Below, one piece after another: positions 3,001 to 47,138 of a DNA stretch of 51,496 nt (the stretch's first letter is position 1; each line of letters begins with the position of its first letter). Made by a program: the position numbers and the translations under genes. Below the pieces are notes generated by a model. That model was not told the origin of the DNA. It saw nothing but the letters and a program-made list of their open reading frames with translations, and did not search any database. This stretch comes from Symbiobacteriaceae bacterium (GTDB lineage Bacteria; Bacillota; Sulfobacillia; Symbiobacteriales; Symbiobacteriaceae): NCBI GenBank assembly GCA_029239785.1, contig JARBUG010000015.1, forward strand, positions 1 through 51,496, in the 5' to 3' direction.

Positions 3001-6000
3001 CCGCCGACCTGGACTGGACTTCGCCGGACCAGAACCACATTCGCCTCACCTGGGCCGCCCCGGGTGGCGACATCATCAGCCGGTATGAGATCCGGCGGGA
3101 CGGCGTGAAGGTGGGGGAGGTGGCGGCGGATGCTGCTCTGTCCTTCCTGGAAGGGAATCTCGAGGTCAACGCCCGCTACACGTACGACGTGGTCGCCATC
3201 GACCAGGCGGGCAATATCTCCGAAGCGGCCACGGTGAAGGCGACCACCGGCTCCACCGCCGACACCGAGGCGCCCACGGCGCCCACCGGCCTGCAGGCCG
3301 TGCTGACCGACGTCACCACCGCCGAGCTGACCTGGGAAGCCGCCGACGACAACGTCGAAGTGGTGGCCTACAACATCTACCGGTCCGCCGACGGCGCTGC
3401 CGCCGAACTGATCGCCACCGTTACCGACGGGCTGGCCTATCAGGATGGGGACCTCTCCACCGACACGGCCTACACCTACACGGTGACGGCGGTTGACCTG
3501 GCGGGCAACGAGTCGGACGCCAGCGCCCCGGTCACGGTGAAGACGGAGCCCATGGTCATCGCCGACCTGATCACCCGGATTACGCCCAAGTCCCGGGCCG
3601 GCGCGGGCTTGCCCGGCGCCACGGTCGAAATGACCCTCGTCGGCGACGCCAAGCGCGGGGCCGAGATGATCATCGTCTACCAGACCTGGCTTGATGCCAC
3701 CGGCGTGATCCTCGACGCTCCCCGTGAGGTTGAACTGGTTCTGCCCATGGCAGAATCCGCTGCCGCCCCGGGCACCTACTTTGCCACCCAGACCATGCCG
3801 GTCGACATCGCTGCGATTCTCTCCGTGACCGGCAAGCTGTCTGACGGCAAGGGCAAGCACGTGGCGGAGGAGGCGACCGGCCTGCCCCTGCCCTTCATCG
3901 GCAACATGCAGGTCGAAATTGCGGCCCCGGCCGGCGCCACCGCCGAGGACGTCGCCGTGGCGCTGAAGAACGCCAAGCTGATGATCTGGAGCGACAGCGC
4001 CCAGAGCGGCGCCCAACTGGCCCCCACGGGCGTGGGCGTCCACTTCCTCGAAGGCATGACCCCCGCCGACGACTATACCATTCGTCTGGTCGACTACTGG
4101 AGCCGTGAACTGGCCCGGGTCACCGGCGTGCGGGTCGACGGCGGCATTACCCGGAACATACGGGTAGCGCCCCTGCTGCCCGCCAGCCTCCAGATCGAGG
4201 TGCTCGACGCCAGCGGTGCGCCGCTGCGGGGCGCCTACGGCCTCCTGCAAGATAGCGCCGGCAACACCATGCGTGACTGGGTGACAGGCGCAGACGGCAA
4301 GACCTACGCCATGAACTGGCAGTGGATGGACGAGACGATCAAGGTCGTGCCCGTCACCCGCCTGCCGTTCAAGCCGGCGGCGCCTCAGACCATCGTCCTG
4401 AAGCCGGGCACGAATCGGGTCACGTTCCAGCTGGAGCGGTACGCCGAAGGCCGGGTGGAGGGCGTTGTGACCGAGACCCAGCTGGGCATTCCCATGGAGC
4501 GGGCCTACGTGAGTGCCACCCAGGTAATCGACGGCCAGGGGCTCACCCGCACCGCCCATACCGATGAAAACGGCCGCTACAGCATCACGCTGTTTGAAGG
4601 CCCGGCCACCATCAACTTCAGCGGCGCCCAGCCGATCAAGCAGGTGCCGCCTGCGGCGGTCACCATTCCGGCGAACGGCGTGGCCGTGCACAACCAGAAC
4701 GTACAGTTGCTCGCCCCAGGCGAGCTGACGATCGACATCTACACCCGCTCGAACGGCGGCGATTGGATCGGCCCCATCGAACTGAACTGGCGGGTTGCGG
4801 TCCACTACGGCCTCAGCGTGATCGACAAGAACGGCACCCGGCTCTATGTCGGCGATTTCTCACCCGTCCGCATGGCCGCTGCGGCCGGCGACCCGATCAA
4901 GGTCTGCCTGGATGGGCGCGAGACCGGCTTCCCGGATGTCTGCCAGACCGGCACCTTCGGGGCTGACCTGAAGGCCCGGGTCGAAGTCCGCCTGGACTCC
5001 GACGCCCTGGGCCGGCTCCAGGCCTATGTGAACGCCTCGCAGTGGAGCGGCGTCGTCTACCGCATCGGTGATGACGGCTCCCGGATGCCCGTTGGCGTGG
5101 TTGATCAGGCGCAACCGATGTTCCGTGCCACCGCCGTCGGTGCGTACGAAGTTGCCGTGACCACCGGCGACGGCCGCTACGGCACGGGCCGGACGACCGT
5201 TGTGATGGGCGGCACGGTGGGCGCGGTTGTGTCGCTGACCGCTGGCAGCCGTTTCTTCGGGAAGACTGGCAACAGCCTGACCACCAATCGGAACGAGGTG
5301 ATGGAGGGTGACCTGCTCCATCTGCGGGCCGGCTACAAGAACAACGGCCTCGCCTTGAAGGACGCCGTGCTCAAGCTTGAGCTGCCGGCCGGCACCACCC
5401 TGGTGCCCGAAACCGTCACGCTGGATGATGTTCCGGTCGCTTACACCTTGGAAGATGGTGCAGTGCGGGTCGCCCTGGGCGACCTGGCGCCCGGCGCCGA
5501 AGGTGTGGTGCGGGCTTCGGTTACAGTGGGTGAAGGCCTGACCCAGGATTACCTGGCGGCCAGCGCCTGGATTGGCCAGGCCGGCGCCACCACGGCAGAA
5601 CTGGTAGGCACCAGCGTCGTGCGGCTGCTCCGCATCACCGTGAATGCCATGAAGGAAGTGACGAGCCTCGAGACCACCGTCTACGGGCGGGCGCCGGTCG
5701 ACAGCACCGTCACGGTGTACGCCAACGATACCCCGGTGGGCAGCGCCATCGTGCTGGAGGGCGGCAACTGGATGATGCCCGTGACGCTGCCCGGCAGTGC
5801 CACGCTGGCCCGCACCTACAGCATCAAGGCGGAGGCGAAGGACCAGAGCGGCAACCTGCTGGCAGCGGCCCAGACCGAAACCACCTTCGATCCCAACGGC
5901 GTCGAGGTCGTAACGGCCAGCGTTACCGGCGTTCATACGGTGACGGTCCGGCCCAATGCGGTTCCGCCCCGGTTCCCGGTGGTCTACATCCCCGGTCAGC

Positions 6001-8492
6001 GGGTTGGCGCATCGCTTTCGTTCAGTGACCCCAGCCGCATCACCGGCCTGCGCATGGGCGTGCAGGGGGTGGGCGCCCCGGTCGGGGCGTCGCTCAACAC
6101 CAACGGCAGCTTTTATGCGTCGCTGCCGAGCAGCAACCGCATGGGTGCGATCGTCGCCAGTTGGGGCGTGAAGCCCCGGCCCTACAGCCAGGCGGTGCAG
6201 CCGACCCTGGCCGACATGCGGGAGATGATTCCGTCCTCGCTCTACAACTCGACCCTTGCGTCGTTCTCGGAAACAGGCGATGTGGCCAGCGGACCCTACA
6301 CCCAGTCGGCCCTGCTGCATGCCGGCGGTGACGCCAACGAACCCATGGAGTTCGGCTTCTCGGTCTCCGACGTGCGGCCCTACAAGCCGACCGCCGAGGA
6401 CCAGGCCCGGATTCGCAGCGGCGCTCCTGCCATCTACAACCCGCAGTTCGAGTTCAAGGGTGATACCTTCACGTTTACGGCGCTGGTGCCTGCGAGCCAG
6501 GCCGGCGGGGTTGCCGTCAACTCCGTTGGTGCGATGATCGAAGATCCCGCCAAGGAGATTCAGATGTTTGGCCGGATCACGGGCAACGTATTTGGCGCCG
6601 TTATGGCCCTGCTCTCGATGGATCAGCAGTTCCGGGAGTTGACCGAGCTGTCCGATATCGCGGCCGGTTGCCGCGGCAGCGCTGCCAACTACCAGGCCAT
6701 GATTCAGGATATCGCCAACCAGGTGATGGTCAACCTGGGCTACCGCAGCAGCATGATGCTCCTGAGCGGCGTGCTGGCCGCCACGGGCGTGGGCGGCCCC
6801 GGTGCCGCCGTGCTGGCCGGGTTCACCTTCCTCTCCAGCGGCTTCCTGAACTTCATCCTCGGCCGCCGCATGGATGATCTCCGTGAGATGATGGCCAACG
6901 ACCCCAACTGCCACGCTGAGTTCCCGGTGCTCGACCCGGTCTGGATCATGGATCCCGGCGGCTACGTCTATGAGGCGACGCCGGAGAACTGGCTGGACGG
7001 CGTGACGACCACGCTTTATGAAAAGCAGCCTGACGGCACCTTTGCGGTTTGGGATGCCGCCTGGTACGGCCAGATGAACCCCCTGACCACGGGCACCGAT
7101 GGCACCTACGCCTGGGACGTGCCCGAAGGCGACTGGCAGGTTCACTACCAGAAGGACGGCTACCAGGAGGCGAAGAGCCCCGTGCTGGCCGTGCCCCCGC
7201 CCCGGACCGATGTGAACCAGGGCCTGGTCTCGCTGGAGGCCCCTGAAGTGGCCTCGCTGCGGGCGGGTCAGGATGGTGCGTATGTTGACGTGGTCTTTAC
7301 GCAGTACATGCGGGCCGCTTCGCTGGGTAACTCGACCGTGTCGGTCCTGCTGCCCGACGGCACCCGTGTGGAAGGCAACGCTGAGCCCCTGGCCCCGGTC
7401 GCCGGCGACGGCGGCGTGCTCGTGACCCGGGTGGCCCGGTTCACGCCGGCTGAGGCACTGAGCGTTGGCGCCACCTACCTGGTGGACGTGAGCGACCTGG
7501 TACAGAATTACGCGGGCCGGACCCTGGAGCAGGGCTTCGTGCAGGCGGTGCTGATTCCTGAAGATGCGACCCCGCCCGGCGCCGTGACCGGCGTGACGGC
7601 GGAGGGCACCGACGGCAGGCTGGTCCTGCGTTGGAGCAACCCGGCGGACGTTGATTTTGACCGGGTGCGCATCGAATGGCTCGACCAGTCCGTTGAAGTG
7701 AGCGGCTCCTCGTATACCGTGGAGCGGCTGGAGAACGGCGTTACGTATGTGGTGAGGCTGACGGCCATCGATCTGGCCGGCAACGAGTCGGCGGCCGTAA
7801 CCGTGACCGGTACGCCGGTCGACAACGTGGCGCCCGCAGCGGTGACGGATGTGACCGTGACGGCGGCTGCCCACCGGCTGACGCTACTCTGGAACGAGCC
7901 CTACGCCTCTGACCTGGATTACGTTCTGGTGGCGTGGGAGGGGGGCACCCGGGTGGTGCCTGCGGGCATCGGGGCGCTCGACCTGGGCGACCTGGCCGAC
8001 AGCCTGACGCTCACGTTTACCCTGACCCTGTTCGACCGGGCCGGCAACGGTTCGGCGCCCATGGTCGTATCCGGCACGACGCCTGCCGTGCTGATTGTGG
8101 CGCAGGTGAACGCCGGGCCGGTCAACGGCCTGCGCTCCGCCGACGGCAGCGTAGCGGTGCAGGTGAAGGCCAACACCTTCGACTGGGCCACGACCCTGCG
8201 CATCCTGCGCTACAACGCCCCCGTGAAGGTCGGCAACCCGGCGCTGACGGCCATCAGCTCCGCCATCACGGTGGAGGTGGTCTCGCCCCTGCTGAAGCCG
8301 CTCACGGTGGAGGTCAGCTACGACAAGGCGGCACTGGGCAAGGCCGACCACAAAAAGGTCGCCCTCTACCGCCAGGATGACCTGGACCCGAGCAATTGGG
8401 TCCTGGTGGGTGGCAGCGTCAACCCCGGCCAGGGGTACGTACGGGCTGAAGTAACGCAACCCGGCACGTATATGGTCATGGTCGCCAAGTAA
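1..8492 (+). CDS. Giant multidomain Fn3/Ig-like surface protein, 5' end outside window
   Basis: The reading frame is open from base 3, and the first codons already encode an Ig-like beta-sandwich, so the true start lies upstream; the GTG/ATG codons near 57 are internal. At least 2,800 residues are visible. Tandem Ig/carboxypeptidase-regulatory-like beta domains fill 60-2950. Two fibronectin type III domains lie at about 2980-3250 and 3265-3545, and two more at about 7565-7815 and 7825-8085. A DUF11-like module sits at about 5260-5620 (segment starting near GNSLTTNRNEVMEGD). A hydrophobic, Gly/Ala-rich stretch at about 6740-6870 could be membrane-active or a buried core. There is no LPXTG motif or C-terminal anchor; the end is a small beta domain. 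It is probably secreted or cell-surface. Substrate and partners are unknown. The family is inferred from fold-type repeats, not a named homologue. Confidence 0.85.
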   Translation, partial: KNPSAPYNVILFEEPAGRVMGMTKFVATLPDPTRVDVFQFHFVTETGERQLLKTITGATGSGIYEAEWDSTTVPDGHYSVAATALDADNNVIATGSHSFEVYNAVASGLAFQVKKPGGQPAAGARVYIYYAIDQTAPLTLLEEGRADRDGKYSLTGREATDGHQYFVVAQGSEPGFLYMQTLTAPANAVLTEQDTFPVTFAGRDAAGAPATLATIWATAQLGSRKLHLKDPLATLDGAGSATVYLPSAGFTFRQYSSDYSQYQVLRNALVTEAATVTIAPPAGGLATIDVVGNPQFARTTAVWTDLTDGLTLEGGDLPRRQVTPGSYELEVTGRWAGTYGGDSTTSITPALTVAAGETRNVSLGGPYTLQLATDWTGPVPTDAEVAFTAALVDQYGNRSKYVYPTLYVSGPTGSNQYAGWPEWEQWEHSLPGQYTVYAEVSNTLVGSALRSQPLTFQVVSGGNQSPGGGLTVNVIDRTGSPIMYGQVSLLKKSTAGSQLVDERMVYGGQPASFGLPALSPGESLALAVTGITASTDPAAPGMKPFFLVVPVPAGAAPITMQVDLRGYNFQSVTLQALDNAGSLIQDSVQYYGYFYGDDQTPVGALIDGAYGEPLTVLMPEGRYAFQAVVLGDRWSSVQNQYVLTAGPADLPANGQVTLGGSGQLTRLSAALAGQNDEVSMAAMAIFATGGPGLPGHQVSFDAPVYVTPGAYQLEWVLVRQALSGEWAYWLARTVQATGADQSFQVGSTFTVQATAGRPVYEPGSTLQVNTLIGDGFGNRLVRVALGFYGGGGFATVNGAVQVPETGDPSQIAPFLVIKDANGTEVHRQKVVDPDEQQIVTSWSGCYEGNTCPPLRLSDGPSSYFGQSLVVPAEWAGRQLTAHVEVGAGPEGPTRSVPFALSVSNAPILDSQPAATREAGLTITGFTEAGATVALTYTLDGGAPVAAGSATAGSDGRFSIYVEMAAEGTYAFTATATLPDKVSDPSQPLAVVVDRTAPAAPADLDWTSPDQNHIRLTWAAPGGDIISRYEIRRDGVKVGEVAADAALSFLEGNLEVNARYTYDVVAIDQAGNISEAATVKATTGSTADTEAPTAPTGLQAVLTDVTTAELTWEAADDNVEVVAYNIYRSADGAAAELIATVTDGLAYQDGDLSTDTAYTYTVTAVDLAGNESDASAPVTVKTEPMVIADLITRITPKSRAGAGLPGATVEMTLVGDAKRGAEMIIVYQTWLDATGVILDAPREVELVLPMAESAAAPGTYFATQTMPVDIAAILSVTGKLSDGKGKHVAEEATGLPLPFIGNMQVEIAAPAGATAEDVAVALKNAKLMIWSDSAQSGAQLAPTGVGVHFLEGMTPADDYTIRLVDYWSRELARVTGVRVDGGITRNIRVAPLLPASLQIEVLDASGAPLRGAYGLLQDSAGNTMRDWVTGADGKTYAMNWQWMDETIKVVPVTRLPFKPAAPQTIVLKPGTNRVTFQLERYAEGRVEGVVTETQLGIPMERAYVSATQVIDGQGLTRTAHTDENGRYSITLFEGPATINFSGAQPIKQVPPAAVTIPANGVAVHNQNVQLLAPGELTIDIYTRSNGGDWIGPIELNWRVAVHYGLSVIDKNGTRLYVGDFSPVRMAAAAGDPIKVCLDGRETGFPDVCQTGTFGADLKARVEVRLDSDALGRLQAYVNASQWSGVVYRIGDDGSRMPVGVVDQAQPMFRATAVGAYEVAVTTGDGRYGTGRTTVVMGGTVGAVVSLTAGSRFFGKTGNSLTTNRNEVMEGDLLHLRAGYKNNGLALKDAVLKLELPAGTTLVPETVTLDDVPVAYTLEDGAVRVALGDLAPGAEGVVRASVTVGEGLTQDYLAASAWIGQAGATTAELVGTSVVRLLRITVNAMKEVTSLETTVYGRAPVDSTVTVYANDTPVGSAIVLEGGNWMMPVTLPGSATLARTYSIKAEAKDQSGNLLAAAQTETTFDPNGVEVVTASVTGVHTVTVRPNAVPPRFPVVYIPGQRVGASLSFSDPSRITGLRMGVQGVGAPVGASLNTNGSFYASLPSSNRMGAIVASWGVKPRPYSQAVQPTLADMREMIPSSLYNSTLASFSETGDVASGPYTQSALLHAGGDANEPMEFGFSVSDVRPYKPTAEDQARIRSGAPAIYNPQFEFKGDTFTFTALVPASQAGGVAVNSVGAMIEDPAKEIQMFGRITGNVFGAVMALLSMDQQFRELTELSDIAAGCRGSAANYQAMIQDIANQVMVNLGYRSSMMLLSGVLAATGVGGPGAAVLAGFTFLSSGFLNFILGRRMDDLREMMANDPNCHAEFPVLDPVWIMDPGGYVYEATPENWLDGVTTTLYEKQPDGTFAVWDAAWYGQMNPLTTGTDGTYAWDVPEGDWQVHYQKDGYQEAKSPVLAVPPPRTDVNQGLVSLEAPEVASLRAGQDGAYVDVVFTQYMRAASLGNSTVSVLLPDGTRVEGNAEPLAPVAGDGGVLVTRVARFTPAEALSVGATYLVDVSDLVQNYAGRTLEQGFVQAVLIPEDATPPGAVTGVTAEGTDGRLVLRWSNPADVDFDRVRIEWLDQSVEVSGSSYTVERLENGVTYVVRLTAIDLAGNESAAVTVTGTPVDNVAPAAVTDVTVTAAAHRLTLLWNEPYASDLDYVLVAWEGGTRVVPAGIGALDLGDLADSLTLTFTLTLFDRAGNGSAPMVVSGTTPAVLIVAQVNAGPVNGLRSADGSVAVQVKANTFDWATTLRILRYNAPVKVGNPALTAISSAITVEVVSPLLKPLTVEVSYDKAALGKADHKKVALYRQDDLDPSNWVLVGGSVNPGQGYVRAEVTQPGTYMVMVAK

Positions 8493-8590: not shown

Positions 8591-9613
8591 GTGGACCTCA
8601 AAGAGCGGCTCGCCCAGTTTCGGGCGGAAGAGCAGCGGCTGTCCTGGGAAGGGACTTTCCTGGAGTACTTCGAGAAAGTAAAGGCCCAGCCCCAGATCGC
8701 GGGCCTGGCCCACGCTCGAGTCCATGACATGATCATGAGTCAGGGCGTCAGTACCGATGAAGCCGGGCGGAAGGTTTTTGACTTCTTCAAGCATGACATT
8801 TTCGGCGTCGAGAAGCCGCTGGAGCAGCTGGTCGAGTACTTCAACTCGGCGGCAAAGCGGCTGGAAGTGCGCAAGCGCATCTTGCTGCTCATGGGCCCGG
8901 TGGGCGGCGGCAAGAGCACCATTGTTTCGCTGCTCAAGCGGGGCATGGAGCAGTTTTCCCGGAGCGAGGAAGGCGCGGTCTACGCCATCAAGGGGTGCCC
9001 CATGCACGAGGAGCCCCTCCACTTGATCCCCGATGAGCTCCGGGCGGACATCTACCGGGAGTTTGGTCTTTACATTGAAGGTGACCTGTGCCCGGCCTGC
9101 CGGCAGATGGTGCAGGACCAGTACGGCGGACGCATGGAGGATGTGATCGTCCAGCGCATCGCTTTCTCGGAGAAGAACCGGGTGGGCATCGGCACGTTCA
9201 CGCCCTCGGACCCCAAGAGTCAGGACATTTCGGAGCTGACCGGCAGCGTTGACTTGTCGACCATTGGCCAGTACGGCAGCGAGTCCGATCCCCGGGCCTA
9301 TCGGTTCGACGGTGAACTGAATGTCGCTAACCGCGGCGTGATGGAGTTTATCGAGATGCTGAAGTGCGACGAGAAGTTCTTGTATGGATTGCTGACATTG
9401 AGCCAGGAGCAGAACATAAAAACTGGCAGGTTTGCGATGATTTACGCCGATGAGGTCATTCTGAGCCATACCAACGAGAACGAGTTCAACGCGTTCATCA
9501 ACAACAAGAAGAACGAGGCGCTCAAAGACCGGATGATCCTGGTGAGGGTGACAGACCTACAGACGAAGGCTGCAGGGGTTCGCCCCCTGCAGCCTTTCAC
9601 TCGGAGTCAGTGA
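8591..9613 (+). CDS. prkA: PrkA serine protein kinase, 5' half of an interrupted gene (AAA+ part)
   Basis: PrkA is an AAA+ domain joined to a C-terminal kinase-like domain. In Bacillus it is made early in sporulation in the mother cell. The GTG at 8591 is chosen because AGGAGG at 8579-8584 sits 6 nt upstream and the protein then begins VDLKERLAQFRAEEQR, as PrkA proteins do. Walker A (GPVGGGKST) is at about residues 101-110. The PrkA sequence is intact for 318 codons, to ...LKDRMILV (9544). After that the frame runs 22 foreign codons into an inserted element and stops at 9613, so this piece alone lacks the kinase domain. The rest of the gene begins at 16481 in the same codon phase; the joined product would be 318 + 313 = 631 residues, the length I recall for B. 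subtilis PrkA. Confidence 0.93.
   Translation: MDLKERLAQFRAEEQRLSWEGTFLEYFEKVKAQPQIAGLAHARVHDMIMSQGVSTDEAGRKVFDFFKHDIFGVEKPLEQLVEYFNSAAKRLEVRKRILLLMGPVGGGKSTIVSLLKRGMEQFSRSEEGAVYAIKGCPMHEEPLHLIPDELRADIYREFGLYIEGDLCPACRQMVQDQYGGRMEDVIVQRIAFSEKNRVGIGTFTPSDPKSQDISELTGSVDLSTIGQYGSESDPRAYRFDGELNVANRGVMEFIEMLKCDEKFLYGLLTLSQEQNIKTGRFAMIYADEVILSHTNENEFNAFINNKKNEALKDRMILVRVTDLQTKAAGVRPLQPFTRSQ
9534..9561 (+). other. attL: core repeat plus right half of attP
   Basis: The shared core TGATCCTGGTGA is at 9534-9545. It is followed by GGG and then TGACAGACCTACA (9549-9561), the inverted partner of TGTAGGTGTGTCA at the other end of the element (12 of 13 bases). The predicted crossover dinucleotide is the central CT at 9539-9540. 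Confidence 0.8.
9566..9597 (-). terminator. Terminator of the KAP NTPase gene
   Basis: The inverted repeat AAGGCTGCAGGGG / CCCCCTGCAGCCTT has a 4-nt loop and directly abuts the KAP stop codon at 9597-9599. It lies between the left attachment core and the first gene of the element, so it would also limit transcription running from prkA into the element, or the reverse. Confidence 0.65.
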
Positions 9614-12140
9614 TGCGTTCTTCCTCGGCAGTTGACGGGCTGCGGAATCGTTCGGTCATCTGCTCCAGAGACCACATGTCATTGTTGAACGCTTCGCGTG
9701 ACGTTGGGCGGAGATCGAGCGAATCGATGGCTTTCCGGACAGCCTCAAGCAGGCCAGAATCAGCAACTTGAACCCAAGTAGATCGAACTCTGTTCACGTC
9801 TTCTCCAGTGCGCGCCCATTCCAACCATGAATGAAGTAGCATCCGGAAATTGGCGACCCATCCTTCTTCGGCCCCATGTTTGGCGGCAGCCTCCACTAAC
9901 GTCTGATGAGCGTCAGGGCGACCCAGGAAGTCTGTACGTAAATCCACAACCGCAGAATAAAGAGGATGGCCGTCAAAGATCGGACGTTCGGAAAGTTGTT
10001 CTAGTGTCGAACGCCATAGGGAAGATGCTGCGTCTGAATGGAGACGGCGGAGTTCGCTCTCCAAGGTTGCTCCCAAGGCATACTCCCGAGTAATGTCTCC
10101 TTTGGTGATCTCTAGAAGTGCCTCGGGAGTCCATGCGGACTTCTCCAGTACGATCCGGGCAAAACCAAGGGAATCTACCTCCGATTCATGCTTCGACTCA
10201 CTAGCTAACAAGGGTTGGACACTCTTCCGTGGAAAAAGCTCCAGGCCCCTAAACTGTTGATGTCGAATAGCTTCGGTTAGGATGTCCCGCAAGAAGGCGT
10301 TGCTAAAGGTGGCATATTGTCCTCCAGGCGTGTACGACTGGTCGTTGGCCCGATAAATCTCGTTCTTCAAGTTCACACATCTAGAAATGAATTCCCTGAC
10401 CCGGTCCAGACCGTCGTTCTCAAGGTCCTTCAGGACAGCCGTGATCGTAGTTCTGCCGTCTCTAATGCCTGCTAGGAGTGACATCATTCGGGACTCAGGA
10501 ATCCAATCCGGGGGGTCCACGTATGTAAAGAAGATTGATTTGGGGGTAGTAAGAACTGTACCAACAGCGGTAAGCAACCCACCTAGTTCGAGTAGTTGCG
10601 AAACCCACGCCGCGTCCTCGGGCTTTGCGCTAATAGCCTTACCGAGTACCTCATACCATCGTTCTGCGGCCGGGTCGGCTTGGGTTCTAGGCCAAGAGGA
10701 CTGTCGCCGTGTGCGCAAATAATCCCAGTAGCTTGACCGGAGACCCTCAAAGATAGTCTGGTCCCCCAGTTTACTGTGGACTTCAGGATATCTGAAACGA
10801 AGTAGTTCTCCGAATAACAGTGCTTGAACGATGTCCTCCTGATCTAGGTCCAACACGCGATCAAGGAGTTTCTTCACGACAAGGAAGCTGTTCAGAACCT
10901 GCTTAATGGCCCGAGGATTGCCATCGACCGAATGAAAAATGAACGGAAAAACTCGATCAACAGTCTGGCGTTTTAGGCCGGTAATAGTTTGAATATCGTC
11001 GCGAAACAGGCGAGAGAATCGCTGTAAGCTTGGTGCCGGAAGGTCTACGGTAACGTTTATGATTTTCCTTAGAAAGTCCCGCCCCTTTGTTTTGTACCGC
11101 CTCGCTAGCACGGTCTCCACCGATTTTCTGTCCATTCCAACGATGAAGACACAGTGTTCGAAGTTGACGATCTCCTTTAGAAACTCTAGGGTCCCGAGTA
11201 CGTTTTCCGGAGCACACCTGTCCAAGTCATCGACAAAGACAACTAACTTCTTATCGTTAACCAGGTCCTTGATTAAAGCACTTACCTGCTCCTTTAGGTC
11301 TTCCAGGTTATCGGTGGATGGGATGTCTTGCATCAGTGCGCTTAACCACTTTACTTGGTCCTGGCTTGCCACCACGTCTCGGGCAGCCTTGTAGTACCCT
11401 GACACCGAAGAGAGTACGTTGATCGGTAGGTGGTGCTCCTTCATAACAGCGATGATTGACTGAATCATCGCTCTCCAAATTGAGATCTTTGTATCATAGA
11501 CCCAAGCATTTACCCACGCAGTTTTGTAACCACGCGAGTCGAGGTCGTGTTGCATCAGCTTCATTACAGAACTCTTTCCCGTACCCCATCCACCGTTCAG
11601 AGACAAAGTAATCGGAGTGCTCTCGGAATACTCGCCGATGCTGTTGACGATCGCGGCTGCCAGTGCCGACCGACCAAGAGCATCCTTCCCCGGGTGCAGG
11701 ATGGGGGAGTCCACCAAGAAATGAGGGTGAGAGGCCGAAGGTCCTTCTGCGTTGTCAGTGGGCGGAGTTGTCCTACCAAAGCCAGACAGATGAGTTATGG
11801 TAACTACGGTTGCGAGGGCCCATATGACCACCCATAGGCCCCCGGCGCTTGTATACCAGAAGCGAATCGTCAGGGCCAGAATCGACTCTACAAACAGGAC
11901 CAGGCCCAATCCACGCTTTTCCAACCCCGCCCAGTCGTATCTGGGCACCCAGGTCGCAAGGGAATAACCAGTCAGGGCCAAGATAGCAACAATTAATAGG
12001 GGTCCCCATTTGGCTACCCACTTCCCGGCAGCCTCTAGTAGAGGTGCAAGATGATCCGGTAACCACCACGACAGAATGGTACATAAGGCGATAAGGATAA
12101 ACAGGCGAGCAAACTTGTTCGATGAAGACCATTTGGTCAT
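9597..12140 (-). CDS. KAP-family P-loop NTPase, membrane-associated, element cargo
   Basis: KAP NTPases are large STAND-like ATPases. Bacterial members include PifA-type phage-exclusion proteins and plasmid-borne proteins of unknown role. The start is the ATG at 12140 with a GGGGGG ribosome site upstream, giving 847 residues. Four hydrophobic segments fill about residues 10-118, before the ATPase domain. Walker A (NGGWGTGKSSV) is at about 181-191 and Walker B (LVVFVDDLDRC) at about 300-311, followed by the KAP-typical arginine-rich helical region and a long unassigned C-terminal domain. Classical KAP proteins carry the membrane segments between Walker A and B, so the N-terminal placement here is notable. 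It is the only cargo gene of the element and has lower GC than the chromosome. A role in defence or entry exclusion is inference from family and context. Confidence 0.88.
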   Translation of the reverse strand: MTKWSSSNKFARLFILIALCTILSWWLPDHLAPLLEAAGKWVAKWGPLLIVAILALTGYSLATWVPRYDWAGLEKRGLGLVLFVESILALTIRFWYTSAGGLWVVIWALATVVTITHLSGFGRTTPPTDNAEGPSASHPHFLVDSPILHPGKDALGRSALAAAIVNSIGEYSESTPITLSLNGGWGTGKSSVMKLMQHDLDSRGYKTAWVNAWVYDTKISIWRAMIQSIIAVMKEHHLPINVLSSVSGYYKAARDVVASQDQVKWLSALMQDIPSTDNLEDLKEQVSALIKDLVNDKKLVVFVDDLDRCAPENVLGTLEFLKEIVNFEHCVFIVGMDRKSVETVLARRYKTKGRDFLRKIINVTVDLPAPSLQRFSRLFRDDIQTITGLKRQTVDRVFPFIFHSVDGNPRAIKQVLNSFLVVKKLLDRVLDLDQEDIVQALLFGELLRFRYPEVHSKLGDQTIFEGLRSSYWDYLRTRRQSSWPRTQADPAAERWYEVLGKAISAKPEDAAWVSQLLELGGLLTAVGTVLTTPKSIFFTYVDPPDWIPESRMMSLLAGIRDGRTTITAVLKDLENDGLDRVREFISRCVNLKNEIYRANDQSYTPGGQYATFSNAFLRDILTEAIRHQQFRGLELFPRKSVQPLLASESKHESEVDSLGFARIVLEKSAWTPEALLEITKGDITREYALGATLESELRRLHSDAASSLWRSTLEQLSERPIFDGHPLYSAVVDLRTDFLGRPDAHQTLVEAAAKHGAEEGWVANFRMLLHSWLEWARTGEDVNRVRSTWVQVADSGLLEAVRKAIDSLDLRPTSREAFNNDMWSLEQMTERFRSPSTAEEERITDSE

Positions 12141-12265
12141 CAATATCCCCCCTTCAAAGGTCAGTTGAAATGTTCGTTTGTGTAAGCAACATTTCCTCTT
12201 GGTTAAAGGATGTAAAAACTGGGCGGCGCCGCCACACTCGGTGGAGCCGCCTTGATAGATGTGCA

Positions 12266-12481
12266 CCACGTTGCCGTAGGGCAGTCAAGGGAGGAACGTG
12301 GATTCCCCGTGTAGATGCAGGCCCTTGACGGCCCGTAGGCAACGTGGTCTCCCCATGCCGCCCGGCCCGGCTGATTGTGCGCCCCGAAGCCCCGGCCGTC
12401 AAGCGTGAGGACTCTGGCGTTGGTCCCTGCTTGACTGCCGTGGCTCCGGGGCTAATCTTTCCTCTCAGCCGGGCAGCATGG
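12266..12481. repeat. Nested inverted repeats with two alternative pairings, 5' leader of KAP gene
   Basis: The 349-bp gap between KAP and the relaxase holds four arms: A 12266-12291, B 12322-12347, C 12381-12404 and D 12429-12452. A pairs with B (22 of 26, outer 10 bp perfect) and C with D (21 of 24). All four carry GGC(A/C)GTCAAG. The cores of A (12280-12289) and D (12430-12439) are perfectly complementary over 10 bp, and so are those of B (12324-12333) and C (12394-12403), so A:B + C:D and A:D + B:C are alternatives. An outer pair, 12353-12366 with 12468-12481, encloses C-D (13 of 14). A further GC-rich hairpin lies at 12221-12251. The function is unknown: attenuator, structured RNA or DNA-level origin-like structure are all possible. 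Confidence 0.7.
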
Positions 12482-12489
12482 TGTGTATC

Positions 12490-13851
12490 TCAACGCCCCC
12501 GGTCATAGCCGCTGTCGCACTCCCTGTCTCCGCGTCTGCGCCTCTGCATATGCTCCCACCTCTGCTGCACCTCCCGGTCCTGCTCCTGGGCAAAGCCATC
12601 CAGGGCCTTGACGATGCGCTCTAGCATCTCTCCGATGGACCCGACTTTCTCCTCCAGGGCCGGCACCTTGGCCCGGTCTCGCTCGAACCTTGAGCGTTGC
12701 TCCTTCAGGTCATCCTCCGAGGACACTCCCGCCTTTTGAGCCTCGTTGCCCCAGTGCTGGACCTGCTCCTCAGTCCGCCGATACTCCTCTCGGGCATCCT
12801 TGCTGAAGAAGCGCTTCAGCGTCGGGATGGGTGCTTTCAGCGCCGCACGGTGCGCCGCAGCTTGTCTCTGATTGTCCAGCGACAGTGCAGCACGGTTCAG
12901 TCGCTTCTCCTCGCTCGCAATCTCGGACAGTTGACTTCTGACTCCATGCAGTTCGTGCAGTTGTTGCTTCTGGAGGTCACGCGTCTGATCCCAACTCAGT
13001 TGGCTCCCGCCGCAGACGTAGTATTCCAGCTGAGCCAGCGCCTTGGCCTGGGGGATAGGCCACCCTGCCTGCAGGCGCGCAACGTGCCGGTCAGAGACAA
13101 CTTTCTCGGCCTGCAGTACTCGCCGCTGCTCCCGAGCCTTGTCCAGATCTATGACCACGCCGTTGTGCTGCTGGACTGTGCGGTTGTGGTTCCCCTTTTC
13201 GGTCTTCACACCCTGGCGCTCCAGGGCAGACGCATGCGGCCCCAGGTGGACCTGCGGCAGGCGTTCGGAACCCTGGTCGTTAAGGCTACGGTGGTCGATC
13301 CGATCCTCGACGTGAGCGCGCTCCAGGGCTCGATTGGCGTGGTTAGCCCACTCTGCCCGCCAACGCTCCAGCATCTCGGGGCGATTCCACTCACGGTTCT
13401 TCTTTGCCGGGAATCCTTTCGGCCCAATCTCTCGCATGGTCAGCATGATGTGTGCGTGCGGGTTGTTCGGGTTCCGGTGGATGGCCACGTCTGCCACCAT
13501 GCCCAGCGACACGAACTGCTCCTCAACGTACCCGCGGACTAGCTCACGTTGCTCGCCGGGGGTCAGCTCTTTGGGGAAGGCGACGACGATTTCGCGGGCC
13601 ACCTGGGCGTCGGCCCGGCGCTCCGCCTTCTCAACCTGGTTCCATAGCTGGGAACGGTCCTGCACCCACTCAGGGGCGCCCGTCGGCGCCATGATCTCCG
13701 TCTCGATCTCGCCCCGGCGCTTGGTGTAGTCGAAGACCTGCCCGGTGCGTTCGTCGACGATGCGCTCCCCGGCTCGATAGGCGGCGGCGCCCGTGGCGCT
13801 GCGCCCCGCACTGCGGCCGATAACCTGGGCGTTCAGGTAGTAGATCGCCAT
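12490..13851 (-). CDS. MobA/MobL-family relaxase (MOBQ type)
   Basis: The relaxase nicks oriT and leads the single strand into a recipient through a helper mating apparatus. The start is ATG 13851 with GGAGGTGG about 8 nt upstream, giving 453 residues. The N-terminus MAIYYLNAQVIGRSAGRSAT is typical of MobA/MobL and of the relaxase part of Ti-plasmid TraA. The metal-binding HUH-type segment HRNPNNPHAHIML is at about residues 121-133. The last 150 residues are charged and coiled-coil-like, and there is no C-terminal helicase domain, so it is shorter than TraA. It is divergent from the TraD-like gene with an oriT-like site in between, the same layout as traA/traCDG of Ti plasmids (recalled). The gene appears intact. 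Confidence 0.92.
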   Translation of the reverse strand: MAIYYLNAQVIGRSAGRSATGAAAYRAGERIVDERTGQVFDYTKRRGEIETEIMAPTGAPEWVQDRSQLWNQVEKAERRADAQVAREIVVAFPKELTPGEQRELVRGYVEEQFVSLGMVADVAIHRNPNNPHAHIMLTMREIGPKGFPAKKNREWNRPEMLERWRAEWANHANRALERAHVEDRIDHRSLNDQGSERLPQVHLGPHASALERQGVKTEKGNHNRTVQQHNGVVIDLDKAREQRRVLQAEKVVSDRHVARLQAGWPIPQAKALAQLEYYVCGGSQLSWDQTRDLQKQQLHELHGVRSQLSEIASEEKRLNRAALSLDNQRQAAAHRAALKAPIPTLKRFFSKDAREEYRRTEEQVQHWGNEAQKAGVSSEDDLKEQRSRFERDRAKVPALEEKVGSIGEMLERIVKALDGFAQEQDREVQQRWEHMQRRRRGDRECDSGYDRGR

Positions 13852-13912
13852 ACGGTGCCACCTCCGAGGCGAGGATGGGCGATACGGCATGTGGATCGGG
13901 CGGGGGCCTCCG

Positions 13913-13934
13913 TCACGCATCGCCAGATGCGTGA
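13913..13934. repeat. Perfect hairpin in the mobilization intergenic region
   Basis: TCACGCATC and GATGCGTGA form a perfect 9-bp stem around a GCCA loop. It lies 62 bp upstream of the relaxase start and about 50 bp from the oriT-like site. It may be an accessory relaxosome or autoregulatory site; nothing direct proves a function. Confidence 0.5.
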
Positions 13935-13981
13935 TGGGGCGCCCGGGCTGGGGTGCAGGGGCCGGAGCCCCATGCCGCAAC

Positions 13982-14014
13982 ACATCGGCGAAGCCGATGT
14001 ATAGTTGCGCCCTT
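13982..14014. other. Candidate origin of transfer (oriT), IncQ/Ti type
   Basis: A perfect 8-bp inverted repeat, ACATCGGC / GCCGATGT (13982-13989 and 13993-14000), is followed at once by ATAGTTGCGCCCTT (14001-14014). From memory, RSF1010/R1162 and Ti-plasmid oriTs have the same layout: an inverted repeat and then a core close to AAGTGCGCCCT, nicked within or beside that core. The site lies between the divergent relaxase and TraD-like genes, where such oriTs are usually found. The rest of 13852-14219 contains one further hairpin and no gene I can support. Confidence 0.75.
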
Positions 14015-14219
14015 CGTTTCACTCGGGATAAAGGTACCACGGAGGGGCGCGCGTGAGAACGGTGGAGGGGACCTTTTCGCTGGAGGCATTACATCTGGCG
14101 GAAACCGTGCGGTACAAGGCCTGCTGTGCCCCCAGCGAATATGCAGTCCCTCTGAAGTGCTGACTACGCGGGCTGGCGAATATCCAGGAGTAAGACCAAC
14201 CTGGAGGTGTGGCGAGGGC

Positions 14220-14501
14220 GTGGCAGGTAAGTCCATGGAGGAGCGGCTCACAGACGTTGAGGTACGCATTCGGCAGTTGCAGGCGAGGAAGCAGGCACTG
14301 GCTCAGCAGGTGAAGCAGCAGCAAAGGAAGGAGCGCACCCGGACGCTCATTCAGATCGGGGCGATCCTGGCCAAACTTGGCGTTGACTCATTGGAAAAAG
14401 CCCAGGCGTTTCAGAAGGAGATACAGGGTCGGCCCGAGGCCCAGGACTGGCTCAAGAAGGTGACGGCCAGAGCTGCGCAACCGACGAGAACTGAAGACTA
14501 A
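14220..14501 (+). CDS. TraD-like small mobilization accessory protein
   Basis: A 93-residue, highly charged, helical protein starts at GTG 14220, 10 nt after GGAGGTG (14203-14209); the later ATG 14235 has no ribosome site. The segment RKERTRTLIQIGAILAKLGV (about residues 39-58) resembles the conserved core of the TraD/MobC-type small proteins found next to MobA/MobL relaxases, which have a KxRTRxLIQxGxLxxKxGL-like pattern as I recall. An N-terminal coiled coil precedes it. It is divergent from the relaxase across the oriT-like region. Its likely role is DNA-binding relaxosome helper. The similarity is by eye only. Confidence 0.7.
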   Translation: MAGKSMEERLTDVEVRIRQLQARKQALAQQVKQQQRKERTRTLIQIGAILAKLGVDSLEKAQAFQKEIQGRPEAQDWLKKVTARAAQPTRTED

Positions 14502-14532
14502 ACGGCTCGCCCAGGGATAGGGCGGGCCGTTT
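14500..14532 (+). terminator. Terminator of the TraD-like gene
   Basis: The inverted repeat AAACGGCTCGCCC / GGGCGGGCCGTTT (one G-U pair) has a 7-nt loop, overlaps the stop codon, and is followed by TCATCTGT. It insulates the mobilization gene from the recombinase module. Confidence 0.6.
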
Positions 14533-14570
14533 CATCTGTCGGGAAAGGTCAGGGCGGAGGGGCGCCCGCA

Positions 14571-14609
14571 TATCGCTTAAGCGATACGAAGAACGACCTG
14601 GATATCGCT
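14571..14609 (+). promoter_or_regulatory. Palindromic operator-like site before the recombinase module
   Basis: The perfect 16-bp palindrome TATCGCTTAAGCGATA (14571-14586) is followed by a third half-site, TATCGCT (14603-14609). It lies 58-73 bp before the 56-residue ORF that leads into the recombinase gene. This layout suits a repressor or activator controlling recombinase expression. I could not place a convincing -35/-10 pair. Confidence 0.5.
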
Positions 14610-14643
14610 ACAGTGACAGACCAACACTGGGAGGGTAGATGAA

Positions 14644-14814
14644 ATGGCAGAGCGGCGAATTATAGGCAGGAAACCCAGTTCGTGGATCGAAATGACGATA
14701 GAGGGGGAGCGCCCATCGCGAGAGGTCCTGCTGAGGGCGCTGGCCTACGTTCGACGCTGTGCAGAGGAGCGAAAGCGGAATGCAGTTTGCGGAACCGAGA
14801 TCGACCCAGGTTAA
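14644..14814 (+). CDS. 56-residue ORF overlapping the recombinase start; possible excision factor
   Basis: ATG 14644 sits 8 nt after GGGAGGG (14629-14635) and encodes a 56-residue basic, Arg/Glu-rich peptide ending at TAA 14812-14814. Its last 35 nt overlap the start of the recombinase gene, whose own ribosome site (AGAGGAG, 14763-14769) lies inside this ORF, so translation is probably coupled. Large serine recombinases need a small recombination directionality factor to excise, and in some sporulation elements that factor is a peptide of about this size (SprB of SPbeta, 58 residues as I recall). Position and size fit that role, but no sequence similarity was seen. It could equally be a leader peptide or a small regulator. 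Confidence 0.6.
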   Translation: MAERRIIGRKPSSWIEMTIEGERPSREVLLRALAYVRRCAEERKRNAVCGTEIDPG

Positions 14815-16447
14815 GCGAACCATCAAGGTTGCCGTCTACCTGCGGGTAAGCACGGTGGACCAGGGCAAGCGGGGGTTCAGTATCCCGGAGCAGCGCAAGG
14901 CCTGTCTGGAGAAGGCGCGAGCGCTAGCCAAAGTGGTCGAGACAGACAGCTTTGATCCCGTCCTGGTTGAGTCCTATGAGTTCGTCGACACGGCTGGCGG
15001 GGACCTCATCGAACGACCGGAGTTGTCCAACGCCAGGGAGTTCGTCAAGGAGTCGCACCCTGACTACTTCATCTGCTTGGACCCTGACCGGTTCAGCCGC
15101 GCCACGTACCAGGCCATCTTGATCGCTAACGAAATCGAGGCCGCCGGTACTAAGCTTGAGTTCGTCCAACACGACTATCAGGCGACTTCGGAGGGGCGGC
15201 TCTTCTTCACGCTGCGCGTGGCCATCGCCGAATACGAGAAGGCCAAGATCATCGAGCGGACCAGCCGTGGGAAGCGGGGAAAGATTGCTGCCGGGGGCAT
15301 TCCGCATAACATCAGGGCTTACGGATATGATCATGTGTCCGAGCCGGAGCGGCAGCTCCGCCAGCGAGAAGGCCATCCTGACCCGGGGACTCTGGTGCCC
15401 AACTCGACAGAAGCCGCCTGGGTGCGGCAGATGTATGAGTGGGTAGCCAACGAGGAAATTGGCAGTATGACCATCGCCGAACGGTTGAACGAGATGGCTG
15501 TGCCGGCTAAGAACGGCGGCTCCTGGCACCGGGGCGTGGTTGACGGCATCATTCGCAACCCTATCTACATAGGTCAGTTGAGACTCAACCGATTTGACTT
15601 CACTGGGCTGGGGGGACAGGCGCATCTTCCGGCCGAAAAGCGCACCAAGAAGCTAACTGGCAAGCTGCGGCCCGAGGAAGAGTGGGTGACAGTCAGCGTT
15701 CCGGCCATCCTTGATGCTGACCTCTGGGAACGGGCCCAGGCGGTCCTCCAGAACATTAAGCGGCGGTCTAGTACCCGGATCTCGCCGGGGCGTAGGGGGC
15801 ATTTCCTCAGCGGCATTCTGACCTGCGGTCTGTGCGGCGCACCTGTGCATTACGTCTGGAACAACAAAGTGAACGGCTACCTAGTGCGGTGTGCCAATCG
15901 CTATCCGCTGGTGCGGGGGTTGAAGGAGACGCCTCCGACGTGTTCCCTGCCGCACATCAAGGCGGCTCCGATAGAGGCCAGGGTGTGGGATAAGCTGAAG
16001 GACTGGTTCGAAGACCCGGACCTCCTGGAGGAGGATCTCGCACGGCAGCAGGAGGAACCCTCGGAGCACCAGGCCGAGATTCAGGAGAAGCTGGCCCAAC
16101 TTGCTGAGCAACTTGAGGAGGCCAAAACCCGGCAGTCCCGAGTCTTATATCTGGTTACCAAGGGCGTCGTCCATCCTGAGGTAGCGGAGGCCCAGTTGGG
16201 AGAGATCAAGCGCCACCTGGACGCCCTGGAGCAGCAGCAGGAGGCGCTGAAGCAGATGTTAGGCCGAACCAACCAAACGGCAACCAGTATCGGCCGATAC
16301 GTGGGGATGGTACGGGACATGCAGAAGGAAGTGCTGGAGGAGATGGAACAGATGGATCTGCAGCAGCGGCAAACCTTGGCGCGGATGCTGCTCAGAGAAG
16401 TAGTTATCCACAGCAAAGACCGGGCGGAGACCATACCGGCGCTCTAA
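14780..16447 (+). CDS. Large serine recombinase (integrase/excisionase of the element)
   Basis: This is a site-specific recombinase of the SpoIVCA/phiC31 class. ATG 14780 lies 10 nt after AGAGGAG; an in-frame GTG at 14759 lacks a ribosome site. It has 555 residues. The N-terminal resolvase domain begins VAVYLRVSTVDQGKRGFSI, with the catalytic Ser in RVST (about residue 18). The recombinase domain includes RNPIYIGQLRLNR, and the zinc ribbon carries CGLCGAPVHY plus later Cys residues. A long coiled coil at about 425-520 is the part that controls direction of recombination in this class. It reads toward the right attachment site, stopping 23 nt before the core repeat, as integrase genes usually do. 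It should catalyse both insertion into prkA and, with a partner, excision. Confidence 0.96.
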   Translation: MQFAEPRSTQVKRTIKVAVYLRVSTVDQGKRGFSIPEQRKACLEKARALAKVVETDSFDPVLVESYEFVDTAGGDLIERPELSNAREFVKESHPDYFICLDPDRFSRATYQAILIANEIEAAGTKLEFVQHDYQATSEGRLFFTLRVAIAEYEKAKIIERTSRGKRGKIAAGGIPHNIRAYGYDHVSEPERQLRQREGHPDPGTLVPNSTEAAWVRQMYEWVANEEIGSMTIAERLNEMAVPAKNGGSWHRGVVDGIIRNPIYIGQLRLNRFDFTGLGGQAHLPAEKRTKKLTGKLRPEEEWVTVSVPAILDADLWERAQAVLQNIKRRSSTRISPGRRGHFLSGILTCGLCGAPVHYVWNNKVNGYLVRCANRYPLVRGLKETPPTCSLPHIKAAPIEARVWDKLKDWFEDPDLLEEDLARQQEEPSEHQAEIQEKLAQLAEQLEEAKTRQSRVLYLVTKGVVHPEVAEAQLGEIKRHLDALEQQQEALKQMLGRTNQTATSIGRYVGMVRDMQKEVLEEMEQMDLQQRQTLARMLLREVVIHSKDRAETIPAL

Positions 16448-16453
16448 CTAGTG

Positions 16454-16481
16454 TGTAGGTGTGTCAGCGTGATCCTGGTGA
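16454..16481 (+). other. attR: left half of attP plus core repeat
   Basis: TGTAGGTGTGTCA (16454-16466), GCG, then the core TGATCCTGGTGA (16470-16481). Joined to the left end, the circular element would read 13-bp arm, 3 nt, 12-bp core, 3 nt, 13-bp inverted arm. This is the symmetric attP expected for a serine integrase, centred on CT at 16475-16476. Confidence 0.8.
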
Positions 16482-17422
16482 AGGTGCCCTACAACCTGCG
16501 GGTATCGGACGAAGTCCGCATCTACGAGAAACTGCTGGCGGACTCGGCCCTCAAGGGAGTCCACATTGCACCCCACACCCTGCGGGTCGCTTCGATCTTC
16601 GCGATTCTGACACGACTGGAGCCGTCGAAGAAGACCGGCCTCAGCCTCATGAAGAAGCTGAAGCTTTACGACGGCGACAGCGTCGAGGGCTACACCCAGA
16701 AGGACCTGCGGGAGCTGCAAGACGAAGCACAACGGGAAGGCATGCAGGGCATTTCGCCCCGGTACGTCATCAACCGGCTCTCCAACGCCCTGGTCAAGGA
16801 AGGTATCAGCTGCATCAATCCGCTCGATGCCCTGCGGGCGCTGAAGGACGGCTTCGAACAGCACACCGGCATTGCCAAGGAAGAGCGGGAAGCCTACCTG
16901 AACTTCATCTACGAAGCACGCAAGGAGTTCGACGAGCTGGCCAAAACTGAAGTCCAGCGGGCGTTCATCTACTCCTTCGAGGAGACGGCCCGCACAGTCT
17001 TCAACAACTACCTCGATAACGTGGAGGCCTTCGTCAATAAGCAGAAGCTGCTTGACCCCATCACCGAAGAAGAGGTCGACCCGGACGAGAAGCTGATGCG
17101 CTCCATCGAAGAGCAGATTGGCGTCACCGACAACGCCAAGAAGGCCTTCCGGGAAGAGATCATGATTCGCATCAGCAGTCTGGCCCGGAAGGGGCAGAAG
17201 TTTGACTACACGTCACACGACCGGCTGCGGGAAGCGATTGAGAAGAAGCTCTTCGCCGACCTCAAGAACGTGGTTAAGATTACGACCAGTTCCCGGACCC
17301 CGGACCCTGAGCAGCAGAAGCGGGTCAGCGAGGTGGTGCGCCGGCTAATGGAGGACGGCGGCTACTGCGAATGCTGTGCTAACGAACTGCTGAGGTACGT
17401 GGGGACGCTGCTGAGTCGCTAA
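16481..17422 (+). CDS. prkA: PrkA serine protein kinase, 3' half of the interrupted gene (kinase part)
   Basis: From AAG 16481 the sequence resumes PrkA (KVPYNLRVSDEVRIYEKLL...) and runs 313 residues to the stop at 17420-17422. It holds the end of the AAA+ module and the whole C-terminal PrkA kinase-like domain. The frame is open from 16451, but the few upstream codons belong to the element and no ribosome site precedes a start codon, so this piece is probably not translated while the element is present. The phase matches the 5' half exactly across the shared 12-bp core. The C-terminus has a Cys pair (YCECC). No yhbH or spoVR, the usual prkA neighbours in Bacillus, follows. Confidence 0.93.
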   Translation, partial: KVPYNLRVSDEVRIYEKLLADSALKGVHIAPHTLRVASIFAILTRLEPSKKTGLSLMKKLKLYDGDSVEGYTQKDLRELQDEAQREGMQGISPRYVINRLSNALVKEGISCINPLDALRALKDGFEQHTGIAKEEREAYLNFIYEARKEFDELAKTEVQRAFIYSFEETARTVFNNYLDNVEAFVNKQKLLDPITEEEVDPDEKLMRSIEEQIGVTDNAKKAFREEIMIRISSLARKGQKFDYTSHDRLREAIEKKLFADLKNVVKITTSSRTPDPEQQKRVSEVVRRLMEDGGYCECCANELLRYVGTLLSR

Positions 17423-26055: not shown

Positions 26056-26090
26056 CGTCCGTCCTCCTCACGCTGGGCGGGTGCCCCCGG

Positions 26091-26867: not shown

Positions 26868-26906
26868 ACGCAATCTCCCCCAGAGCCGACCGCAAGGGTC
26901 GGCGAC

Positions 26907-28760: not shown

Positions 28761-28792
28761 AACGTATGCCTCCCCTGGACGAGCCGGTCGGG

Positions 28793-31228: not shown

Positions 31229-31256
31229 CAGGACACGCCCCTTTTTACAGCGATTC

Positions 31257-31805
31257 TTACTCTGCTGGTTCCTGGTCTGCGGTGTGGCGAGTGACGACTA
31301 CTTCGGCCTTTCGTAGAACGGTGCCGCGCCATACGTATCCGGGGCGCACCTCTTCGACAATGCTGCCTTCCGGCTGGTCCGGGTCGAGGCGCGACTCGAT
31401 GGCCCGATGCCAGTGCGGATCAAACCCATCAGCCAGATTTTCCAGCCGCACGACGCCCTGTTCTGACAGCACGTCGTGCAGCAGACGGCTGACGGTGCGG
31501 AAGTTCCCGATCCATTTGCGCATCTGCGGTGTTACCTGATCATCCTTGGCGGCGATGCTGCGGAAGACCCGCTCGAAGGCGTCCATCACCTCCAGCAGCG
31601 AGAGAAGGTGCTTGGCCTGATCCTTGCGCCGCTGTTCGTCAGACGTGTTCAGGGCAAACTCTGCCTCCGCCACCCGGCGCATCAACTGCGCGGTCTCCCG
31701 GGCGATGGCGCCGGCACGGTCGGCAGCCTCTTCTGGCCGCCACCCGGGCGTGGGAATCGGTTTTTCGGTGATCGGAAGCACGGGCGGCAGGGGGGCGTTG
31801 CTCAT
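31257..31805 (-). CDS. GrpE-like nucleotide exchange factor
   Basis: 182 residues. A long N-terminal helix is followed by the GrpE head, whose signature is visible as EGSIVEEVRPGYVWRGTVLR and then KAEVVV, matching the xxGYxxxxRVLRPAxVxV pattern of GrpE. It should release ADP from the cluster's own Hsp70, 28 bp downstream. Its ATG overlaps the stop codon of the kinase gene by 4 nt, so the two are translationally coupled. It is more divergent than a housekeeping GrpE, consistent with serving a specialised Hsp70. Confidence 0.9.
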   Translation of the reverse strand: MSNAPLPPVLPITEKPIPTPGWRPEEAADRAGAIARETAQLMRRVAEAEFALNTSDEQRRKDQAKHLLSLLEVMDAFERVFRSIAAKDDQVTPQMRKWIGNFRTVSRLLHDVLSEQGVVRLENLADGFDPHWHRAIESRLDPDQPEGSIVEEVRPGYVWRGTVLRKAEVVVTRHTADQEPAE

Positions 31806-46663: not shown

Positions 46664-46760
46664 GTGCGATTCCTCCTGGCCGGTCGGTCTTCGCTTGTAA
46701 AGTTCCCCGCGCCCCAGACTGCCTATACCGCCGGCGGTTCGCCGTGCACAGGCTGCGGCG

Positions 46761-47129: not shown

Positions 47130-47138
47130 GTGTGAGCG

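Follow-up and report, generated by a model that had tools for sequence, protein, structure and literature searches.

A putative MobQ-type mobilizable element splits a prkA gene of a Symbiobacteriaceae bacterium in a restorable way

SP-beta, skin and gin are excised in sporulation, restoring spsM, sigK and gerE, respectively, according to the available text of the sources (PMC4191935, PMC5595907). A similar arrangement is present in the window, the stretch of 51,496 nucleotides analysed here, which is the entire contig JARBUG010000015.1 of a Symbiobacteriaceae bacterium (assembly GCA_029239785.1). An element of 6.9 kb that carries a large serine recombinase (LSR) and a MobQ-type relaxase is inserted into a type-A prkA gene (prkA-A). 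Recombination between the two copies of a short core would leave an intact gene of 631 codons.

SP-beta in spsM and skin in sigK of B. subtilis resemble this locus in having an LSR, a short core with inverted repeats and a split gene that is restored, but each is a phage or a phage remnant, unlike the window element (PMC4191935). The gin element, located within gerE in Bacillus cereus ATCC10987, is likewise non-phage and LSR-driven and splits a restorable sporulation gene. It differs in its size (28.6 kb), its three serine recombinases and its target, and no relaxase is mentioned in the available text (PMC5595907). Its excision has been shown experimentally (PMC5595907), whereas that of the window element is predicted from the junctions. 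The target of vrin in Geobacillus thermoglucosidasius, spoVR, belongs to the same prkA-yhbH-spoVR cassette, although the gene and the type of element differ (PMC4191935). Among phage matches to the window LSR, the integrase of Alicyclobacillus phage MMB025 ranks first, with 30% identity. MMB025 is also located in a sporulation gene, but it is a 105-kb infectious phage and its target is sigK (PMC13141910).

No report of an interrupted prkA was found in the open-licence literature, a coverage that leaves out most subscription papers. The word prkA is absent from the main text of PMC5595907, PMC6957869, PMC4191935, PMC13141910 and PMC10083194, and no interruption is described in the available part of a paper on Thermus in which both prkA and prophages are mentioned. 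The first-pass annotation of this DNA had known of no description of the arrangement. This stands for the target prkA within that literature and needs qualifying for the rest, because the non-phage gin (PMC5595907) and the spoVR element vrin (PMC4191935) were known from the accessible text of their sources.

The interrupted gene and its junctions

The split gene and its boundaries comprise the following features.
8591..9545, forward strand: 5' part of prkA (type A), 318 codons plus base 1 of codon 319; AAA_PrkA 2-307 of 358, E 7e-108
9534..9545: core TGATCCTGGTGA, left junction, 12 bp
9546..9564: left inverted arm GGGTGACAGACCTACAGAC, agrees with the right arm (reverse complement) at 15 of 19 positions
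16451..16469: right inverted arm, paired with the left arm at 15 of 19 positions
16470..16481: core TGATCCTGGTGA, right junction, 12 bp
16482..17422, forward strand: 3' part of prkA, from base 2 of codon 319 to the stop; PrkA C-terminal domain 1-255 of 255, E 1e-97

The element spans about 9546-16469; the exact crossover point inside the 12-bp core is indistinguishable. Unexcised, the 5' frame reads on past the junction to a stop at 9613 within the element. The joined flanks form a single open frame of 631 codons, whose product (residues 1-631) aligns with uninterrupted orthologues from genomes G001 and G003 over 631 columns, free of gaps and with 84% identity (G, C and L numbers denote genomes, contigs and loci; G000 is the host genome). 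The 5' part by itself is orthologous to prkA of the same two genomes, and the C half also matches AAA_PrkA 302-356 in Pfam. The first-pass annotation had claimed that the halves stop and resume at the core in the same codon phase, and had proposed a comparison with relatives as a check; the join has the predicted junction and the relatives do carry the uninterrupted gene.

The core occurs exactly twice in the window, compared to a mean expectation of 0.01 from 100 shuffles. A wider pattern, TGATCCTGGTGARGGTG, allowing at most one mismatch, has only the two junction copies in the whole assembly. An assembly artefact joining unrelated sequences might be suspected in a draft of this kind (5.52 Mb in 302 contigs, estimated completeness 91%, estimated contamination 4.9%). 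However, the element is bounded exactly by the duplicated core and the inverted arms and adjoins its own LSR, and the pattern recurs at other sites elsewhere, within one contig in G190, G155 and G248. Such an artefact is exceedingly unlikely.

The G+C content is 0.58 in the element, 0.66 in the remaining window, 0.59 in the prkA halves and lowest, 0.52, in the KAP gene of the element. Because the prkA halves are also low, composition neither dates nor places the element.

Gene content of the element

From left to right, the element encodes a KAP NTPase, a MobQ relaxase, a DUF3847/TraD-like protein, a protein of 56 residues and the LSR.
9597..12143, reverse strand: KAP-family P-loop NTPase (cargo); KAP_NTPase E 2e-39
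12490..13851, reverse strand: MobQ relaxase (MobA/MobL); PF03389 E 7e-73, NCBIfam NF041496 MobQ 266.6 bits, cut-off 200
13897..14042: oriT-like block, with the hairpin ACATCGGC..GCCGATGT and then TATAGTTGCGCCC
14235..14501, forward strand: DUF3847/TraD-like small accessory protein; PF12958 E 2e-7, 31.2 bits, under the cut-off of 40
14571..14586: palindrome TATCGCTTAAGCGATA, read from the sequence, upstream of orf56 and the LSR; possible operator
14644..14814, forward strand: orf56, 56 amino acids, overlapping the start of the LSR; candidate recombination directionality factor
14780..16447, forward strand: LSR, all three LSR domains present

By its anatomy the element is classed as a putative integrative mobilizable element of the MobQ type. 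Elements of this class that carry a serine recombinase are known. The window element shares with them the relaxase, the block that resembles an origin of transfer (oriT), the LSR and the lack of type IV secretion genes among the five open reading frames (ORFs) searched. Unlike them, it splits prkA with exact in-frame restoration. Neither mating-pair or conjugation apparatus genes nor phage structural or packaging genes were found among these five ORFs in the 6.9 kb, and the element does not qualify as a prophage; the earlier description of the intruder as a mobilizable element with a relaxase is upheld. Three features of a skin-like element are present: exact restoration of the frame, an LSR of its own, and attachment sites attL and attR with the 12-bp core and inverted arms.

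An oriT had also been claimed in the first pass. What can be confirmed is a conserved hairpin block beside two related relaxases; the role of oriT is predicted. Over 147 columns the block shares 93% identity with its counterpart on G000:C237, where the adjacent relaxase is 88% identical, and it presumably resembles an RSF1010-type nic region. The contig G000:C237 (L101) contains, at 1-3100, a second MobQ element of the same genome, which has a different LSR and runs off the contig. It encodes a homologue (58%) of the DUF3847/TraD-like protein, and a small ORF near its LSR is homologous to orf56. By position and size only, orf56 is a candidate directionality factor. Searches of PADLOC, NCBIfam and PHROGs at the thresholds applied returned nothing for it, and Pfam gave one noise-level match. 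The KAP NTPase matches PADLOC PDC-S20 (E 5.5e-29) and PifA (E 3e-27), with 82.5 bits to the QatA equivalog, far under its cut-off of 600; it is possibly a phage-exclusion gene of the PifA/QatA/PDC-S20-like kind.

The nearest row to the window LSR in the tree is an LSR of G003:C31, with 44% identity. Identity to the recombinases of SPbetaL8, Goe11 and phi3T is about 22%. A plasmid collection returned 232 records, all below 60% identity and the best-ranked at 28%, and is uninformative.

Split prkA genes in other genomes

The PrkA C-terminal domain (PF06798) was searched for in 154 genomes of the class, 78 of which had a match, and in 398 genomes of the phylum, with 116 matching. Ten matching genomes are common to both lists, leaving 184 distinct genomes with the domain. 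A prkA gene broken beside an LSR is present in 11 of the 184: the window genome G000, G006, G028, G122, G143, G155, G190, G231, G248, G358 and G522. Nine of the 11 genomes yielded both gene ends and eight the complete set of pieces; the middle part was not found in G522, nor one end in G006 and G028. In the window, G190, G155 and G248 a single contig contains the pieces; in the others they are on separate contigs, with presumed continuity. The insertions fall at about five sites, given here by codon.
About 143: G522
About 255: G028, G522, G248 and G358; the LSRs form one clade (100/100)
About 275: G006 and G122; the LSRs form a pair (100/98) within a larger clade (100/99) that includes the window LSR
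About 285-298: G143, G155, G190, G231, G248 and G358; the LSRs of all except G143 form one clade (100/100)
318: the window only

The LSRs of G143 and of the N side of G522 stand apart from the other groups in the tree. Seven split type-B genes were retrieved together with the sequence downstream, and in six of them (G155, G190, G231, G248, G358 and G522) yhbH comes directly after the C half; G028 is the exception. In G190 and G231, where only a split prkA was found, both reading frames are still open. A control with FtsH (PF01434) in the same class gave at least six short frames among the matches listed, all six at contig ends.

Several broken copies were not counted as insertions. That of G002 has internal stops, G019 has fragments, and the copies of G004:C78, G235 and G302 are partial and run to a contig end; partial copies in G058, G117, G146, G152, G241, G268 and G423 were likewise excluded. 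G148 was also left out, both of its halves (L110 and L128, on C157 and C108) being at contig ends and sharing 32 bases. The shared bases lie near the codon at which the congeneric G143 carries a prophage; a mixture of excised and integrated forms in the population is one possible cause. In G056 (C175 and C194; L086, L087) PrkA is interrupted by a sequence that looks by eye like an intein, with Cys at the upstream edge and HN-S at the downstream edge, and this case was not counted either.

The riders are diverse. In G143 a phage-type repressor and an LSR are found on the N side, and the C side has a tail-fibre-like gene. The second element of G248, of about 48 kb, has conjugation genes: besides a MobL relaxase, it encodes a coupling protein of the VirD4/TraG type and an ATPase that combines TraG P-loop and AAA_10 domains and is VirB4-like by eye. 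The 4.2-kb element of G190 carries a nucleotidyltransferase/HEPN pair. In G155 (L221, G155:C10) the element is about 17 kb long and contains genes for a molybdopterin oxidoreductase, an ArsR-type regulator and an SBF-family transporter, a cargo that looks arsenic-related.

The prkA N half as a query matched six loci in IMG/VR, and in four of them (L244, L245, L246 and L249) the gene is truncated beside an LSR. The other two, L247 and L248, are near full-length PrkA relatives beside which no LSR was found. A query with LSRs added L250, with a prkA C half, bringing the supporting contigs to five in total. The break in the prkA of L244 (IMGVR 2636415620), at about codon 507, lies outside the AAA domain and adds another site; the LSR is 33% identical to that of G155. 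Terminase and portal genes are present in L245. L249 (IMGVR 641736255) has a 143-codon N piece of prkA, and its LSR is 100% identical to the integrase of the Paenibacillus larvae phages Likha and Riker; the available text of papers on P. larvae phages leaves their integration gene unnamed. Searches of IMG/VR found no relatives of the window LSR, the window prkA C half or the G190 LSR. The LSRs of G190 and L245 are 47% and 41% identical, respectively, to SP-beta YokA, which is presumably SprA; this recombinase restores spsM in the mother cell (PMC4191935). Across these genomes, LSR elements that differ in make-up and are unrelated have repeatedly landed in prkA.

G248 and G358, which belong to the same genus, share both of their interruptions. 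Their prkA is in three pieces with two LSR elements between (G248:C3, L234, L223 and L239; G358:C17/C7, L235 and L224), and the block composed of the first LSR, the middle piece and the second LSR is 92% identical between the two genomes. Crude Nei-Gojobori estimates of omega, made with a script written for the purpose, are 0.048 for the N piece (253 codons), 0.011 for the middle piece (33 codons) and 0.032 for the C piece (347 codons). The protein encoded by the middle piece is identical in the two genomes, with 12 synonymous changes and one counted as non-synonymous owing to averaging over mutation paths. Each piece is under purifying selection. The synonymous divergence (dS) is 0.42 for the first LSR compared to 0.34-0.35 for the outer prkA pieces, and this divergence of the LSR argues against independent recent insertions in G248 and G358, without strictly excluding them. 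Since an orphan of 33 codons between two mobile elements has kept its protein sequence, the gene is presumably reassembled; read in this way, the conservation of the three-piece prkA implies rejoining.

Excision, its timing and its meaning for the host

The family of the host holds two types of prkA, A (split in the window) and B (with yhbH), which the tree separates. Both are full-length in G001 and G003, whereas G002 has one full and one broken gene, and G004 one full gene and one that is partial at a contig end. The host genome contains a second, intact prkA of type B (G000:C209:33068; L001, L033), followed by yhbH and by a spoVR-like gene recognised by eye. That this copy might be a contaminant was considered and not adopted, because G001 and G003 of the same family carry two full copies and spoIVA is single-copy in G000. 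With an intact second gene, excision is not the sole route to PrkA. The first-pass claim that PrkA would be made only after excision finds no support: PrkA-A, but not PrkA as such, depends on excision in this host.

The favoured explanation is a skin-like mobilizable element in prkA-A. The LSR, aided by a directionality factor for which orf56 is the candidate, would excise the element precisely, after which PrkA-A would be produced. For the window, precise excision is highly probable. By its gene content the host appears to be a spore former, spoIVA being present in nine of nine neighbourhood genomes, and excision in the mother cell may fairly be inferred from the company that the element keeps; such timing in the window is an even call. 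The explanation as a whole we consider somewhat probable. The earlier proposal of a skin-like element is favoured by the LSR, core, arms, in-frame restoration, recurrent targeting of prkA, distribution of spoIVA and purifying selection on the doubly interrupted prkA of two congeneric genomes; the sole dependence of PrkA on excision is not supported.

If the insertion were dead, prkA-A would be a nascent pseudogene and the element immobile. Only one of two paralogues has been hit, the same one that has decayed in G002, and a recent dead insertion would show an identical sequence picture. The ratio of non-synonymous to synonymous substitution (dN/dS) against the G003 orthologue is 0.11 and 0.14 for the two window halves, compared to 0.13 and 0.10 for the intact pair of G001 and G003. 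These values are ordinary, and a recent insertion would give the same. Yet both halves are open, the core is exact, the arms are present, the LSR has its three domains, and the relaxase and the oriT-like block look intact. A dead insertion is very unlikely.

A different possibility is an ordinary mobilizable element in a tolerated site, its LSR having integrated into a conserved part of prkA-A, a copy that the host would not need with prkA-B intact. Excision would be rare and connected with transfer and would have no developmental role, as in many LSR elements within conserved genes. The intact type-B gene in the same genome agrees with it, as do the decay of prkA-A in G002 and the failure to find it in G005, and the second MobQ element with another LSR suggests ongoing mobility. 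It leaves unexplained the purifying selection on the three-piece prkA of G248 and G358 and the open frames in the split-only genomes G190 and G231. We regard it as a serious possibility, albeit on balance a somewhat doubtful one.

A number of observations weigh against the skin-like explanation and its mother-cell timing. The excised junction was sought in the assembly of the host itself and only attL and attR are present, although a consensus assembly would seldom reveal the excision product. The site at codon 318 was seen in no other surveyed genome, and the survey was controlled with FtsH alone, one gene in one class, among the matches listed. In G002 the type-A prkA has in-frame stops, and in G005 none was found. 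No relatives of yhbH or spoVR were found in the window, and with an intact second prkA the selection for rejoining the window copy may be weak. The window LSR lies outside the SP-beta-like clade. PrkA is also present outside endospore formers, in the control genomes of E. coli, Thermus and Haloferax, and in Chloroflexi and Acidobacteria. Upstream of orf56 (14502-14643), inspection by eye gave no convincing box for sigma-E or sigma-K. The CATA box CTCATATACTTTA, conserved upstream of prkA-A in G001, G003 and G004, is altered in the window. Finally, LSRs often target conserved genes unrelated to sporulation, according to the available text of PMC10083194.

In the same three relatives, ATA-N16-CATAG(C/T)AT is found upstream of spoIVA. 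As spoIVA is presumably a sigma-E gene, the CATA boxes upstream of prkA-A are suggestive, but they are not decisive for the class of the promoter.

Scans with Rfam (at the gathering threshold) and for tRNAs gave no matches across the window. Genes that we take to resemble the GerA/GerB/GerC germination receptor set occupy 42536-47227 on the minus strand. Two giant ORFs, at 57-8492 and 33208-38874, resemble by eye surface proteins that carry repeats of the fibronectin/PKD type. The interval 23644-33025, between the two, appears by eye to contain a cluster with a chaperone, a ClpC-like protein and a Ser/Thr kinase.

In our view, the hotspot in prkA and the three-piece gene are of greater interest than the window element itself. 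It is an evenly balanced proposition that in endospore-forming Bacillota prkA serves as a permanent docking gene: phages and conjugative, mobilizable and minimal LSR elements would independently keep it split in the inherited genome, and only the doomed mother cell would reassemble it, some lineages using two recombinases on the one gene. The window element would be a purely conjugation-dependent adopter of this life style. If true, programmed gene rearrangement in spore formers extends from a few known targets to prkA, and its riders need not be phages, because phage, conjugative, mobilizable and minimal elements would all use this gene. The three-piece prkA provides an evolutionary argument for rejoining that is free of experiment, and the timing and order of its two excisions become testable. 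The arrangement also bears on the role of PrkA: if the gene can stay split throughout growth, its product is probably required late only.

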